Source: Polytrichum commune (lineage: Eukaryota; Streptophyta; Polytrichopsida; Polytrichales; Polytrichaceae). Taken from it: 64,000 bases of DNA. Where the stretch lies: contig OX485805.1 of the NCBI GenBank assembly GCA_950295325.1, positions 33,779,501 through 33,843,500 on the forward strand, in the 5' to 3' direction. Both the position numbers and the translations under genes were made by a program. Below the pieces are notes generated by a model, which saw nothing but the letters and a program-made list of their open reading frames with translations, did no database searches and was not told where the DNA came from. Below, one piece after another: positions 7,310 through 54,050 of the stretch. The stretch's first letter is position 1; each line of letters starts with the position of its first letter.

Positions 7310-7719
7310 CACGGGGAGGTCACTTCATTGTCAAGTTGACACCACGTGCGGACAAAGTTTGCTACCCCTATATTACATGCCATACATAATTTTAAAATTT
7401 ATGATATTTTTTCTACATATACATAACCATTGATAGTATCTTTTGTATACTTTTTTGAAATTTTTAGTCATCTTTATTTTTTTTAGTAATTGTTTTAGTT
7501 CAATTCTGTGTCATTCTAGTTAGAAATGGTATGTTTTATGAAAAAAACAAATCATCAAGTTAAGTTACCACTTTTGACTATGTCATAGGTACTGTGTATA
7601 TCTACTCATGAAAAAAAATTGATAAATTTTTGACCCATTTTGGTGGTGCAACTTACCAAAAGAAGATTTTTTTTGGTCGCACGTGATGTTCAACTTGACA
7701 ATGGAGTGATCTACCCGTG
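7310..7719. mobile_element. MITE family A, copy 1 (hAT-like, 8-bp TSD)
   Basis: A 410-bp non-coding element. Its left end (CACGGGGAGGTCACTTCATT...) is the near-complement of its right end, with terminal inverted repeats of about 45 bp, mostly identical, sharing CATTGTCAAGTTGA. It is flanked by the 8-bp direct repeat CGAGTATC. A second, about 95% similar copy is at 35,887-36,295 with a different 8-bp duplication. An 8-bp duplication is typical of the hAT superfamily. It interrupts the decayed transposase-like reading frame just before this position. Confidence 0.88.
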
Positions 7720-16349: not shown

Positions 16350-16757
16350 TAGGGTAAACTTGCTGGTTAGCTCGGCTGAGGCGAATTCAGGTTAAACTTG
16401 CTGGTTAGCTCGCAGAAGGCTGAGGCGAATTCAGGAGGAGGCCGAGGTGCATTCTAGGTAAACTTGTTGGTTAGCGCGGCAGAAGGATGAGGCGAGTTCT
16501 GGTTAAACTTGTTGGTTAGCTCGGCAGAAGGCCGAGGTGCATTATGGGTTAACTTGCTGGTTAGCGCGGCAGAAGGATGAGGCGAATTCTGGTTAAACTT
16601 GTTGGTTAGCTCGGCATAAGGTTGAGGCGAATTCAGGTTAAACTTGCTGGTTAGCTCGGCATAAGGTTGAGGCGAATTCAGGAGAAGGCCGAGGTGAATT
16701 CTGGGTACACTTGTTGGTTAGCTCGGAAGCAAGGCTGAGGCGAATTCATGGGTTAAG
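16350..16757. repeat. Minisatellite, about eight units of roughly 40-55 bp
   Basis: Units are built from GGTTAAACTTGCTGGTTAGC, then TCGGCAGAAGG, then a TGAGGCGAATTC or CGAGGTGCATT block. Units vary in length because the last block is present once or twice and the AGAAGG piece is sometimes absent. The array is GC-richer than its flanks. No coding frame runs through all units. Confidence 0.85.
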
Positions 16758-35829: not shown

Positions 35830-35837
35830 CATTGGAA

Positions 35838-36603
35838 CTCGGGGGGGGGGGGGGGGCAGCGTGTTAAAAAGTTAAGGATATAGGTGCACGGGGAGGTCAC
35901 TTCATTGTCAAGTTGACACCACGTGCGGACAAAGTTTGCTACCCCTATATTACATGTCATATATAATTTTAAAATTTATGATATTTTTTCTACATATACA
36001 TAACCATTGATAGTATGTTTTGTATACTTTTTTGAAATTTTTAGTCATCTTTATTTTTTTAGTAATTGTTTTAGTTCAATTCTGTGTCATTCTAGTTAGA
36101 AATGGTATGTTTTATGAAAAAAACAAATCATCAAATTTAGTTACCACTTTTGACTATGTCATAGGTACTGTGTATATCTACTCATGAAAAAAAATTGATA
36201 AAATTTTGACCCATTTTGGTGGTGCAACTTACCAAAAAAAGATTTTTTTTGGTCGCACGTGGTGTTCAACTTGACAATGGAGTGATCTACCCGTGTATAG
36301 GTGCGAACAACCACTATTTTATAGGGGGGTATTACTTTCAATTCTCTTTTTTTTTTCACATGCTATCATTATGTAAATTTCTACTTTGGGTTAATAGGAA
36401 AATGGCTTGCATTACTTATAATTCCAAAGTACCTATTGTTCCATACCCTATAGTACTTTAAAGATGTCCAATGCCATTTTTGATACCCTATATTACTCTT
36501 AAGTCGATTTATAATTTTTAGCTCCCATGTTTTTAAAATACCCTATCATTTGTTCGCACGTATATTGCTACTCCAACCAATGACTACCCCCCCCCCCCCC
36601 GAG
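35838..36603. mobile_element. MITE family B, copy 1, interrupted by MITE A
   Basis: It begins CTCGGGG... with a run of about 17 G and ends in a C run followed by CCCCGAG. Inside the G/C runs the inverted repeats continue imperfectly (GTGCGAACAA on both sides). The flanking 8-bp duplication is CATTGGAA (35,830-35,837 and 36,604-36,611). Without the inserted 409-bp MITE A and its 8-bp duplication the element is about 349 bp, matching copy 2 at 37,143-37,492. Non-coding. Confidence 0.88.
35887..36295. mobile_element. MITE family A, copy 2, nested in MITE B
   Basis: A 409-bp element, same orientation and ends as 7,310-7,719, with few differences. Its 8-bp duplication TATAGGTG (35,879-35,886 and 36,296-36,303) occurs once at the equivalent place in MITE B copy 2 (near 37,186-37,193), which is therefore an unoccupied site. 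The insertion and its target duplication can be read directly. Confidence 0.93.
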
Positions 36604-36611
36604 CATTGGAA

Positions 36612-37134
36612 ATAAAATACACTCAACAAAATACATTATAAAATGAAACACATGTGGAGATTAAAAATGGGATTTGGGAATACAACTTATACATATAAAA
36701 GCCCCAGTGGCATGGTCACTGATGGTCATGGCAAAGATGCATACACTCATTACGCAATTGACTTGCGGCCTAAAGATTCGAACTTCACTATATTGTCTTT
36801 GGCGAGGTGCCTTTGTGCATTGAAAAAACCTCTAGTACGTAATTCCAAAAAGCTATTTAATGAACGGCCATTGAACTATTATTTAGAGAAACTTTTATGG
36901 AGCAAAGCCAAGTGAGCATATCTTTTATTTATGTTTTTTGAGATTCATTTTCTTTCACACTTGAGTATGGGGATGCCTCCCGATGCATGTGCGTTGGACC
37001 TAGATGTTGGTCACTGTAAGTTATGCTACAAAGTATATGGATAGATTAGGAGGCTATTGATTTCAATTATTTCATTAAAGGATATGTTGAGGAGCTTGTG
37101 AGGTTGAAGGAAATGCATATTTTCCAAGTTCTTT
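36612..37134. other. Host sequence between two MITE B copies
   Basis: It includes an ATG-started open frame of 90 codons (36,643-36,915 +) rich in basic and aromatic residues, with no domain that I recognise. It may be part of a larger decayed element that continues right of 37,501. Confidence 0.3.
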
Positions 37135-37142
37135 GTGGACAA

Positions 37143-37492
37143 CTCGGGGGGGGGGGGGGGGGGCAGTGTGTTAAAAATTTAAGGATATAGGTGCGAACAA
37201 CCACTATTTTATAGGGGGGTATTACTTTCAATTCTCTTCTTTTTTTCACATGCTATCATTATGTAAATTTCTACTTTGGGTTAATAGAAAAATGGCTTGC
37301 ATTACTTATAATTCCAAATTACCTATTATTCCATACCCTATAGTACTTTAAAGATGTCCAGTGCCATTTTTGATACCCTATATTACTCTTAAGTCCATTT
37401 ATAATTTTTAGCCCCCATGTTTTTAAAATACCCTATCATTTGTTCGCACGTATATTGCTACTCCAACCAATGACTACCCCCCCCCCCCCGAG
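37143..37492. mobile_element. MITE family B, copy 2 (intact, empty of MITE A)
   Basis: A 350-bp element with ends CTCGGGG.../...CCCCGAG flanked by the 8-bp duplication GTGGACAA (37,135-37,142 and 37,493-37,500). It is about 97% similar to copy 1 outside the nested insertion. An 8-bp duplication is typical of hAT elements, but the poly-G termini are not the usual hAT ends. Confidence 0.9.
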
Positions 37493-37500
37493 GTGGACAA

Positions 37501-48406: not shown

Positions 48407-48875
48407 TAGTTCTCATACATTTAACTTATGTGAAGGGCAACAAAGTGTTGATGCTTGCTTTGCTAGCCAATAAAAAAATTCATATTAAAATCCTGCAAAT
48501 ACCTAGCTTCAAAGAAATTACAAGTTCCAAGTAATAAATACACTAAACAGTCCTATTAGTGTGGGTGAGAAATTCGTATAGAAATAAATAATGTGGATCA
48601 CACTAATTGTCTACTCATTAGCCTTTTGGCTTCTCGGACTCTGAGTCAATTTGATTTCATTTGATGATGGTAATGATGTGGTTAAAGACCCCGGTCTTCC
48701 ACTAAGTCTTCATGGTAGTCCGGGCATATTTCTGGTCACAACCAGTCGATATCCTAGTGCTTCCAAATCCAACCAGTTACATATTGACATTTTTGTTTTT
48801 CTTTATTAATTTGGGTATATTCTTTAGATTCTTCTAAAATGATTCGTAATTTCCTGAAGTCTTGAACTTCAACTA
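48407..48875. other. Intergenic, old repeat fragments
   Basis: Holds a further pair of CACTAAA...TTAGTG-like words near 48,540-48,606 that may be a decayed family-C relative, and a copy of the dispersed AGCCTTTTGGCTTCTCGGAC word near 48,620. No gene seen. Confidence 0.4.
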
Positions 48876-49204: not shown

Positions 49205-49979
49205 TAGTTATTTCTCAGACTTATCCAGTTCATCTGTAACTAGCAGTCAGTAACTTGCTTTGTGGAGACTCCCAACAAACTCCATTGATACAAATGTGAT
49301 TTTCCACTGGATGTGTGATTTTTTGAAGGTTAGAAGACATGGCTGTAATCAAATGTCAAGTGAAATTCAAGTTTTTTATAATCCATTGGCATGTGTCTTC
49401 TTCACACACACGAGATAGTCCATAAAAAAATTCAAAACAGTTGGGAGCTTATTTGATAGAAAGAGTTATAGCCAGATTTTAGCACATTTGGAGCTCATCT
49501 GCATACTATGCCAACGAAAATCTGTACAATGAAACATTTCTAAAAGCCACAAATTCTTTTTTGATTCGAAAATTTTAAGCACTATTGAGTTGATTGCCAA
49601 TGCATCTCTATTTGCCCCAAACGCTGTTGGAGTCGAAGCAAATCATGGGACATAAAACAACATTTTCCCTATTTTGGGGTCATGACCCCTGGGGCATTTA
49701 CAGGTTTAAGGATAAATCTAGAATAAAATGAGTAAACAACCCACATTATAGCACTACATAACTTCAAATAGTAATATGTACAAATTGGGATAATCAGTGT
49801 AGCTTATAATCAAAAATATAATAGAAAGGTTTTCCATGTGGTGGATCAGCCTTACCCTAACTTCACTCCATGAGCAATTGGCTGAAAACAGCTCACATAG
49901 AATATGGGTCATTGGATGGACTCGGACATCATAGATTATAGATTGCCAATTTTGCGGATTACCACAAAGCATCACCTAA
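49205..49979. other. Intergenic, no gene seen
   Basis: AT-rich, no supported features. Confidence 0.4.
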
Positions 49980-51424: not shown

Positions 51425-53113
51425 CTAATCCATACTTGCATCGTCCTCGGAGATATCAGAGGCCAGAGCTTCATCCTCAGTCCGTGTAGTGACAACTCCC
51501 TTCTTGCCGGATTTCGCACCCCTTCCCTTTGCTATCAGCTTTCGCTTCCTTGGCTTCACTTCTACTTGACGAACCCCATGAAAAAGCACTCCCCTCCCTC
51601 CTTTGCCTCGCAGTGTTCCAGCCGCCTTAGCAAACTTCTGGTCTGCATCAAGAACCCCAGGTTCTGAGGCAGCTCCTTCACTAACCCCTGTTGTGTCGAA
51701 GAAAAACAAGGGCTCATTGTTGGCACCTTCACCCTCGCTCACCATTTCCGCATCCTCAGATATCGTAATCTTATTGTCCTGCTCTTGTGGTTGTCTCATT
51801 GACATCATCATTAACACACGGTTGAAATCGTATTCCTCGGCATTGAGGAGCCAGTCCAGTAGAGCTTGTGGTTTTTTAAGAACAGCTGTGGTTATCAAAA
51901 TCTTCAAAACACTTCTCCCACCGAGCCAATCGCCTAGCTGAGATGGCGCACTCTGCCTACGCAAACTTGACAATAAATCTGACGCTCTAAGGTGCTCGTT
52001 CTTCGACCTGAAATACGCAGCCGTCTTGCGGGCGATGGAGAGCCTATTGAGGAACGCAACACACTCATTCTGCGCACCGAGCTTTGAAGGTGGTGATGGA
52101 CCATTCTCATGGTTAAACATTTCAGAATTTGGCACCCTGGTAACCACCATCTCACCAAGGATGCCACGCAATGTGGATTCCTCGTCCGCACTCAAAATGC
52201 TGAGGACAGGAAGAGGTGGTTCAAGAAGGGCATCCAACATAACCCCTGAGCTCCCTAAAAACTTCCCATACACAATCAACTCATGCTTCAACTTCTTCTC
52301 AAGCTCACTACGGCCGAGTGGCCGCTCATGAACCACATCTGCAAGCAACCTCAGCAATGCAACTTCAGCCTCAACAAGAACTCCTAACTTACATACTGTC
52401 TCCGCAGAACTAATATCCTCCTTAATGCTGCTTTCCAACGAGGTTGAAGCAAACGGAAACAGAGAAGAGAACTCTGTCCCCTCTGCAATCCACTTATCAA
52501 GTCCCGCGCATACGGATGGAGCCTTGAAAAGGCCACCGGGAGCAGGACATTCTTTGTGGTGGCAGAGAGCTATGAACCCTGAAACCTCCCGAATCAACTT
52601 CGTCAAGCTTTTCCAAAGCTTGGGCTTATTCTTATCCGTCATATCTGCACCATTCTTGCTCTCTGAAGAACTATATGTCACCAAGGCTTCAAATGCAATG
52701 CGTACAATAGGAGCCATGGTCGCTATGGCCATGGGTCCATCGCAAAACCCTGATGTCATAAACTTCAAAGATTGCAATACAGAGTGAGCTGTCGCAACCT
52801 CGCTGTCCGATGCAACCTTTGCTTCTTCATTGGTTAATACGATTCTCTCGATTACAGCAAAAGACCAAAATAGAGAAAGAGGGGGATTAGCTCGAGACTG
52901 CAAGAGACGGACTATGGCCTCTCGCCATGGAGTTCCTTGCTTTTTCTTCAGACCACTTTTTGCTGCCTCAACCGCAGCCTCAACCGCGCGAGAGTATGCC
53001 AAATTACTCAACAATGGACCTTGTGCGACTTCCAGGAGCGATTGGCGAGCTCTCTCTGCAGCCAACTTCCGCTCCGCCCTCTCTGCAAACCACTCCCTAA
53101 GTTGGCCCGCCAT
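51425..53113 (-). CDS. Conserved-looking single-exon protein of unknown function, 562 aa
   Basis: An uninterrupted frame ends at 51,425. The open frame extends upstream to 53,146, but that start is GTG. The first in-frame ATG is at 53,113 and gives MAGQLREWFAERAERKLAAE..., so I use it (562 residues). No ATG lies between it and an in-frame stop upstream, though an unseen 5' exon is possible. The N-terminal half is Ala/Leu/Glu-rich and probably helical. It contains WREAIVRLLQSRANPPLSLF then WSFAVIERIVL, suggestive of HEAT/ARM-like helices. The C terminus has a basic stretch (KPRKRKLIAKGRGAKSGKKG, about residues 519-538), which could be a nuclear or nucleolar signal, and ends in an acidic tail (TEDEALASDISEDDASMD). 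I do not recognise a named family. Composition, length and lack of stops show a real gene. Confidence 0.88.
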   Translation of the reverse strand: MAGQLREWFAERAERKLAAERARQSLLEVAQGPLLSNLAYSRAVEAAVEAAKSGLKKKQGTPWREAIVRLLQSRANPPLSLFWSFAVIERIVLTNEEAKVASDSEVATAHSVLQSLKFMTSGFCDGPMAIATMAPIVRIAFEALVTYSSSESKNGADMTDKNKPKLWKSLTKLIREVSGFIALCHHKECPAPGGLFKAPSVCAGLDKWIAEGTEFSSLFPFASTSLESSIKEDISSAETVCKLGVLVEAEVALLRLLADVVHERPLGRSELEKKLKHELIVYGKFLGSSGVMLDALLEPPLPVLSILSADEESTLRGILGEMVVTRVPNSEMFNHENGPSPPSKLGAQNECVAFLNRLSIARKTAAYFRSKNEHLRASDLLSSLRRQSAPSQLGDWLGGRSVLKILITTAVLKKPQALLDWLLNAEEYDFNRVLMMMSMRQPQEQDNKITISEDAEMVSEGEGANNEPLFFFDTTGVSEGAASEPGVLDADQKFAKAAGTLRGKGGRGVLFHGVRQVEVKPRKRKLIAKGRGAKSGKKGVVTTRTEDEALASDISEDDASMD

Positions 53114-53141
53114 CTCTGCAAAATACTCCCTAAGTCGGAAG

Positions 53142-54050
53142 CTCACAACATTCTTATCAAGAGAACAGATGCAAATCCCTGCAAACCTACGAGAAGTGCT
53201 TCCTTTTGATCAACCACCTATGAAGATAAACTTGGGGAGCTTCGAAATCCGAGGCTCTGGAGTCCGACACCTTTGTGATGTGAGCTGAAGATGGCTAATT
53301 CCGTGAACCCTAATTTGAGAGAGCTAACCTGGAAGACGGAGAAGAAGAAGAAGAAGAAGAAGTAGGAGGAGGAGGTGTGGTGGCTCTCCTTAAACCCTAA
53401 ACCTCACAACATTCTCAACAAGAGAACAAATGCAAAACCTAAAAGTCCTACTTTTGATGCAACCAGGAGTGCAGGAAAATTTATGGATCTTCAAAATCAA
53501 TCCAAAGCTCTGGAATTCGACACCTTTATGATGTGAGCTGAAGGTGGATAATTTTGTGAACCCTAATTGAGAGATCTAAGGGCATGTTCACACGTTGTAC
53601 ACCAAACACAAAGGGGCGCTAAATTGGGTTATATTATTTTAGAGGGGCATAGTTTCATTATGTGTTTCACACATTCATTTTATATGAGTTTCCTAAAGTG
53701 TGAGTTCCATGATCAAACTAATATCTTACAATACATAAGAGTTTACATAGAAATTATTGAAGCTAAGATCCTATTTGGTCAAAGATTATGAGGAATTGAT
53801 AGTTGATTCTCTTATAAAGGATTTGAAAGCCAAGCTGCAATAGACCCAACCCATTATAACTCGGGAAAGCTTTCCAAGTCCTACCAAGCATATAATAGCA
53901 ATTGCGCTTGACACATGGGTCCATCACCCAGGTTAAACCCACCATCATCATGTTGCAGAAGCCTATATTGATAACATGTGAACATGCTCTAACTTGGAAA
54001 AAGCAACCAAGGGGAGAAGCGACCAAGGCTCTCCTTAAACCCTAAACCCT
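53142..54050 (-). promoter_or_regulatory. Duplicated promoter/leader of the 562-codon gene
   Basis: The segment 53,142-53,402 is followed by a diverged second copy, 53,403-53,579, which resumes at about 53,993-54,050. Shared landmarks are CTCACAACATTCT, AAGAGAACA(G/A)ATGCAAA, CGACACCTTT(G/A)TGATGTGAG then CTGAAG(A/G)TGG, GTGAACCCTAATT, and GGCTCTCCTTAAACCCTAAA then CC. Each copy ends with a telo-box (53,392-53,400 and 54,037-54,050). Copy 1 has gained a GAA/GGA microsatellite (53,337-53,375), which is a pyrimidine tract in gene orientation. Copy 2 is interrupted by a 410-bp MITE. Promoter function is inferred from position. Confidence 0.75.
53580..53989. mobile_element. Tourist-like MITE (410 bp) in the distal promoter copy
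   Basis: Left end GGGCATGTTCACACGTTGTA. The right end in reverse is GAGCATGTTCACATGTTATC. It is flanked by TAA on both sides (53,577-53,579 and 53,990-53,992). The proximal promoter copy carries the unoccupied site (GAGCTAACCTGG near 53,323-53,334), which confirms both boundaries and the 3-bp duplication. No transposase. PIF/Harbinger-type by duplication and ends. Confidence 0.85.

Follow-up and report, generated by a model that had tools for sequence, protein, structure and literature searches.

A nested MITE pair in Polytrichum commune and the long elements, encoding a putative transposase, that share its end anatomy

P element transposase is described as having catalytic residues D230, D303, and E531, a signature that adds D339-xx-H, and D528 among the residues that bind GTP (PMC7776569, PMC8230255); the first of these accounts also gives the P superfamily an internal transposase site that lies tens of bp away from either end (PMC7776569). 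Merlin repeats begin with GG, and Merlin proteins carry a DDE_Tnp_IS1595 domain (PMC8101967). Plant MITEs are sorted into five superfamilies according to their termini and the length of their duplications, Micron being set apart (PMC12550479), and the six superfamilies that a review names for plant transposons with terminal repeats do not include P (PMC9033089). By such sorting rules, the two MITEs described here, A and B, would probably be filed as hAT.

Both lie in a window of 64,000 nucleotides (the whole stretch of DNA analysed) on a 59-Mb contig of Polytrichum commune; a single assembly of 408 Mb in 64 contigs, seven of them large, is the whole basis of this analysis. The rbcL gene found on contig C8 is of green-plant type and resembles that of a bryophyte or a streptophyte alga more than that of a seed plant. 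Our main reading, to which we give a probability of roughly 85%, is that MITE B is a deletion derivative of an 8.4-kb family, that MITE A is a MITE of the same clan, and that the long protein encoded by the long elements would be their DDE transposase.

The nested locus and its copies in the genome

The initial annotation described the locus as a MITE within a MITE, and so it is: the 409-bp MITE A sits within MITE B copy 1 with 8-bp duplications at every junction (Table 1), and the proposed order of events, B first and then A, holds as well. The sequence TATAGGTG, present once in B copy 2 and twice (around A) in B copy 1, falls inside the left box of B, and the inserted A has terminal inverted repeats CACGGGGAGGTCACTTC.. 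and CACGGGTAGATCACTCC.., with boxes CACGTGCGG and CACGTGCGA lying some 37 bp in from the ends. Both the flanks and the duplications differ between the two B copies, so that these are no assembly duplication, an alternative that had been raised from the start and is now excluded; being independent insertions, they also make copy 2 a paralogous empty site, not a pre-insertion allele. Thus the empty site said to be preserved 1.3 kb away is indeed an uninterrupted B with a single TATAGGTG, but it is an independent second insertion of B; similarly, the G runs of about 15-18 reported for the ends of B are right for the left tracts (16 and 18) but not for the right ones (14 and 13).

Table 1. Coordinates of the nested locus and of related elements. 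Plain numbers are window positions; positions with a C prefix refer to contigs of the assembly.
Feature	Position	Strand	Remarks
8-bp target duplication CATTGGAA, left side of B copy 1	35830..35837	.	
MITE B copy 1, whole span including inserted A	35838-36603		bounded by CATTGGAA on both sides
MITE B copy 1, left part	35838..35886	+	ends with first TATAGGTG (35879-35886); G16 tract 35841-35856
MITE A, 409 bp	35887..36295	+	bounded by TATAGGTG (35879-35886, 36296-36303)
MITE B copy 1, right part	36296..36603	+	starts with second TATAGGTG (36296-36303); C14 tract 36587-36600
8-bp target duplication CATTGGAA, right side of B copy 1	36604..36611	.	
8-bp target duplication GTGGACAA, left side of B copy 2	37135..37142	.	
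MITE B copy 2, 350 bp, uninterrupted	37143..37492	+	G18 tract 37146-37163; C13 tract 37477-37489
B copy 2 part matching E80 3' end	37155..37320	-	E80 8420-8259, 86%
B copy 2 left subterminal box ATATAGGTGCGAACAA	37185..37200	+	putative transposase site
Deletion junction within B copy 2	37320/37321		
B copy 2 part matching E80 5' end	37321..37484	-	E80 166-4, 94%
B copy 2 right subterminal box ATATACGTGCGAACAA	37440..37455	-	putative transposase site
8-bp target duplication GTGGACAA, right side of B copy 2	37493..37500	.	
Second MITE A copy in window	7310..7719	+	98% identical; own 8-bp duplication CGAGTATC on both sides
E1, 2,344 bp	C6:31197899-31200242 (L070/L068)		CTC-G8-CACT ends, GGAGAAGG on both sides, similar box; beside a hAT
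E75, 5,802 bp	C3, in L075		complete; duplication TCTAGATT
Long element, 6,351 bp	C3:22477311-22483661		complete; duplication AAAGAAAC
E77, 6,994 bp	C3, in L077		complete; duplication ATTTCAAC
E82, 6,880 bp	C3:38708370-38715249		complete; duplication TGCCACCC
E80, 8,423 bp	C4:41298156-41306578		complete; duplication GCAATGGT
C5 sister of E80, 8,426 bp	C5 50059283-50067708		complete; duplication GTGATTTC

Boundaries and duplication length proved the same in other genomic copies as in the window: 8-bp duplications flank 40 of the 41 copies of B that were read (34 exact, 6 with one mismatch; L020 has none) and 22 of 22 copies of A (21 exact; L044 with one mismatch). The B copies comprise 39 fetched from the best-scoring 40 of 1,613 first-look candidates plus both window copies, and the A copies 20 fetched from the other 39 best-scoring plus the two in the window; since these are the best-scoring copies, the sample is biased toward young insertions. 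For B, a script placed 34 duplications (29 exact, 4 with one mismatch, 1 failing), and seven irregular right ends were read by eye (5 exact, 2 with one mismatch). Automatic choice of the duplication length gave 9-10 bp for many copies, where bases beyond the boundary matched by chance or the right end had been misplaced; with the boundary fixed, the length is 8 bp. All junctions of A were read by eye from the printed sequence.

MITE B is young and abundant in this genome. The best 40 of its candidates that were scored are all 99-100% identical, the inner 305 bp have a mean identity of 99.3% among 40 copies (lowest 98.4%), and a 34-base pattern for the left end, allowing at most 3 mismatches, found 1,549 matches against 0 for a control pattern. 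Short, non-coding, with inverted ends and many near-identical copies bearing target duplications, B is a MITE in the usual sense; MITE A, with 1,976 first-look candidates and at least 40 full-length matches (the best 40), is classed alike on the duplications of its 22 copies, its origin from a coding element being judged by shared ends only. An Rfam search of the window found no match. Elsewhere in the window, the only frame of at least 170 codons is one of 573 codons on the minus strand (51425-53146), and there are tandem arrays at 16439-16679 and 2392-2554 with units of 45/90 bp and 46 bp, respectively.

Long elements and the deletion origin of MITE B

The path from the MITEs to longer elements runs through E1, which has frames of 120 and 103 codons without a Pfam match and tandem CTAGTTAACTATAGTTGTT-like repeats. 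A genome-wide search with the E1 frame, which gave 976 first-look candidates, uncovered longer, degraded relatives (whose own frames gave weak Pfam matches only). From the domains of these we reached a protein family for which 150 of 205 first-look candidates were scored, many of them in open frames of 1,100-1,549 codons. A gapped pattern for E1/B-type ends found 674 matches, against 1 in the control; several subfamilies appear among the 100 matches listed, and one of these (CTCGGGGGGTGCACTCCATTGTCAAGTTGAACACCACGTGCGA) bridges the B-type termini and the terminal repeat of MITE A.

Ten long copies were examined with their flanks: six are complete elements with exact 8-bp duplications (Table 1), L081 has a duplication matching at 7/8 bases, and three others (L074, L076, and L079) include one, L079, with a B-type 3' end and a left end that was searched for and not found. 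For the C5 sister of E80 and the element at C3:22.48 Mb only the ends were fetched, their frames of 1,518 and 1,493 codons coming from the genome-wide family search; one of the two complete 8.4-kb copies has an open frame of 1,518 codons. In E77 the coding region is divided between two frames. Between E80 and its C5 sister, identity is 99.7% across 3,405 bp of the 5' part (7 mismatches) and 98.2% across 619 bp of the 3' part (7 mismatches), and such near identity means recent movement of the long element. We considered and rejected a captured host gene as the origin of the 5' part of E80: this part resembles window positions 48721-48873 and 49206-49242, with no clear shared frame. The two window stretches resemble neighbouring parts of the E80 5' region at 75% and 86%; they lie 333 bp apart in the window and are adjacent in E80, perhaps owing to another nested insertion.

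MITE B is an internal-deletion product of this 8.4-kb cut-and-paste transposon family: B 13-178 aligns with the 3' end of E80 and B 179-342 with its 5' end (E80 positions and identities in Table 1), with neither gap nor overlap at the deletion junction. Because its ends are 86-94% identical to B, E80 itself is a close relative of the source of B and a candidate source at most. A pattern for a long element departing from B just after the left box, with B itself excluded, had 0 matches.

A common anatomy ties the clan together. All 16 ends tabulated for B, A, E80, E75, E77, the C3:22.48-Mb element, E82, and E1 start C[ATC]CGGG; [GT]TG[ACT]G stands at position 37-49 in all 16; and CAA follows within a few bases in 13, the exceptions being both ends of E1 and the 3' end of E82. 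In all six complete long elements the ends read C[ATC]CGGGG, a GTG(A/C/T)G box follows about 40 bp further in, the duplications are 8 bp long, and the encoded protein is of one family. MITE A belongs to the clan because its ends, box, and duplication length agree and a subfamily bridges it to B, a kinship that the initial annotation had missed; no long partner of A was found among the long elements examined. A probable further MITE at about 7788-8372 of L077, with CACGGGTAGATCACT-type ends, would represent another A-like subfamily of the clan, and similar ends occur in L074 and L090.

The long protein and P transposase

Ten members of the protein family were aligned; an eleventh (T079), nearly identical to that of E80, was left out. 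Four conserved blocks stand out, namely DETK, SDGD, QDxxHxGKKLxN, and SDxCExFF, within which the following are invariant: i) E700-D701-E702-T703; ii) D820-G821-D822; iii) Q866-D867-x2-H870-x-G872-K873-K874-L875-x-N877; and iv) C1061-E1062-x-F1064-F1065. D1059 and the K that follows DET are conserved too, though not in every member; residue 1059 is Y in E80 and D in the other nine. All ten have the D, D, and E, with [C/D]xxH after the second D, that characterise the P superfamily, as D701, D820, D867-xx-H870, and E1062; D701, D820, and E1062 would be the putative catalytic residues.

Neither the domain libraries nor the PDB sequences gave a credible match. For three members searched against Pfam at E ≤ 10, the sole match was Thioredoxin_4 (E 0.52, under its cut-off), and for all ten at E ≤ 1, Thioredoxin_4 matched two (best 0.038) and Polysacc_deac_2 one; no THAP domain was seen by Pfam in the long protein. 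NCBIfam (two members, E ≤ 1) and PHROGs (two members) gave no match, the best hits among PDB sequences were to unrelated molecules (E 0.59 with the E75 protein, 1.3 with a profile), and viral contigs and prokaryote genomes yielded pattern matches among which no relative was confirmed. Nor did a search of the literature, with Repbase, Dfam, and UniProt outside its scope, find any description of these elements. One locus, L086 (C7:23870900-23875900), encodes a distant member of the family, 26-34% identical, in a 1,189-codon frame; the family has deep branches in this genome.

The four blocks do resemble those of P transposase. DEMK, SDLGTGN, DTPHLIKLVRN, and DIVEHFF of P align in order with DETK, SDGDSRRR, QDFIHNGKKLIN, and SDSCEIFF of the long protein, with the same internal spacing; the DxxH aspartate and the final glutamate are 195 residues apart in the long protein and 192 in P, whereas the first and second D are separated by 119 residues compared with 73. 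The motif pattern in this order, composed after both sides were known, is found in 8 of 11 members and in P (3 of the 11 lack part of it), in 0 of 24 control frames, and in 0 of 5,000 shuffles of one member. An hhalign score of 18.7 for the long-protein profile against P lies within the range of the controls (eight hAT controls score 15.5-23.9, a window frame scores 19.3, and five shuffles of P score 13.7-17.8) and is therefore not significant. A global profile alignment to P, a low-threshold realignment, is uninformative; it places D701, D1059, and E1062 on D230, D528, and E531 and misses the second D and the DxxH block. No Pfam P model matched any of the ten members, although the Drosophila P transposase of PDB 6p5a, as a positive control, matched four; PF21788 and PF21787 had no match genome-wide, with their controls silent too.

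From these motifs we consider it rather probable that the long protein and P element transposase are related, though highly diverged; its anatomy seems P-like as far as compared, with exact 8-bp duplications in the six complete elements and no significant similarity to P transposase or to the Pfam P models, and it is a candidate member of P. Less probable, though a serious possibility, is a DDE transposase outside P, either of an undescribed superfamily or of an unrecognised branch of Kolobok, MULE-like, or other elements. The silence of the Pfam P models on proteins of this family when Drosophila P matches four, and a profile score no higher than controls, both speak for it, and a [C/D]xxH motif after the second aspartate is also found in other superfamilies. 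Against it stand the four blocks, which agree with P in order and internal spacing, and the closely similar DxxH-to-E distance; and the 3-5 bp duplications that one study gives for one Kolobok lineage do not fit the 8 bp found here (PMC9587614).

Other alternatives, proposed mechanism, and known systems

Next to the ends of B, 36 copies have a G tract of 7-18 at the left and 6-18 at the right; in 31 further pairs it ranges from 6 to 19, most often as G8 (18 of 62 ends); one end outside those pairs has 21, for an overall range of 6 to 21. The 31 pairs were counted by hand from 100 listed of 2,163 pattern matches (control 28), excluding matches whose run was interrupted or that had no partner at a distance of 250-400 bp. 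Since tract length varies, the distance from end to box differs among otherwise nearly identical copies, and the G tract may be a slippage-prone spacer, slippage being the simple explanation. Long G runs are error-prone in sequencing, and the variation might mainly be homopolymer error rather than biology; we think this unlikely, given the wide spread (6-21), the sharp G8 mode with long tails, and the 98-100% identity of the adjoining sequence. A coupling of left and right lengths suggested by the 36 copies (rho -0.41, p 0.013) was dropped after the second set (rho -0.18, p 0.34, in the 31 other pairs; G8 stood at one end only in 16 pairs, with an expectation of 13.0, p 0.19).

Still less likely is that the long protein is a passenger, a captured or host gene, and that another transposase moves the whole clan. 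The 3.1 kb before the frame of E80 without an obvious role, and the frame fragments carried by shorter clan members such as E1, would suit a passenger, but one protein family with its acidic motifs kept occupies six complete elements of several subfamilies, and a passenger is not expected to follow the ends each time, so that this constancy counts against it.

The suggestion of the initial annotation, a hAT transposase that moves A and B as hAT MITEs, is hardly credible. Duplications of 8 bp would suit hAT, and the genome is rich in hAT genes (the dimerisation domain has 1,060 first-look candidates), but the ends of B belong to an element encoding a different protein, none of the ten members has the dimerisation domain PF05699 or any hAT-domain match at E ≤ 1, and the three hAT elements with paired ends among 10 hAT loci read start CAGTG or CAGAG, compared with C[ATC]CGGG in the clan. 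Ends of the CAGNG/TAGNG type are characteristic of hAT. The hAT partner that had been anticipated thus gave way to a B-related long element; no MITE-type end pair was seen around any hAT gene at the 10 loci, and the hAT locus L068 shows a CTC-G8 end because the separate element E1 adjoins it. At three loci (L060, L063, and L065) the hAT element is complete, measures about 5-5.8 kb, has CAGTG/CAGAG ends, and is flanked by 8-bp duplications.

Under our main reading, a clan of long elements and their MITEs, the protein of about 1,500 residues would be the DDE transposase of the long elements, binding the GTG(A/C/T)G box some 40 bp inside each end, cutting at the C[ATC]CGGGG terminus, and inserting with an 8-bp stagger. 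B inserted twice, independently, and A, presumably moved by a relative of the long protein, later inserted into the left box of one of these copies. We lean slightly toward the broader view that this is a recently active cut-and-paste superfamily, new to plants and possibly to science, with a very long P-like transposase unseen by current domain libraries, an end-to-box distance made elastic by the hypervariable G tract, and well over a thousand derived MITEs. If true, hAT in plants cannot be recognised from an 8-bp duplication alone, the domain libraries searched lack a transposase lineage, and green plants may have P-type transposition too. The long copies, being nearly identical and having open frames, allow the reading to be tested directly.

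Among known systems, hAT resembles the clan in its 8-bp duplications, MITE derivatives, and plant hosts, and differs in the CAGNG ends of the hATs read here and in a domain that the clan protein lacks. Merlin is alike in duplications of 8 or 9 bp, but neither its terminal GG nor DDE_Tnp_IS1595 was found in the clan. Deletion-derivative MITEs such as mPing/Ping and internally deleted P similarly join both ends of a coding element into a MITE that has multiplied to many copies; these systems depend on a different transposase, and B differs in having a hypervariable G tract inside its terminal repeat. The P superfamily (Drosophila P, THAP9, and zebrafish Pdre2) shares 8-bp duplications, internally deleted non-autonomous derivatives, and the motif blocks DExK / SD / DxxHxxKxxxN / DxxExFF in the same order, and the putative box would correspond to the internal site of P in lying tens of bp from each end. 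P transposase proteins are shorter than 800 residues. The clan differs from the P systems compared in this size, its protein having about 1,500 residues; in its ends, C[ATC]CGGGG with a G tract where P has a 31-bp perfect repeat; and in its host, a green plant.
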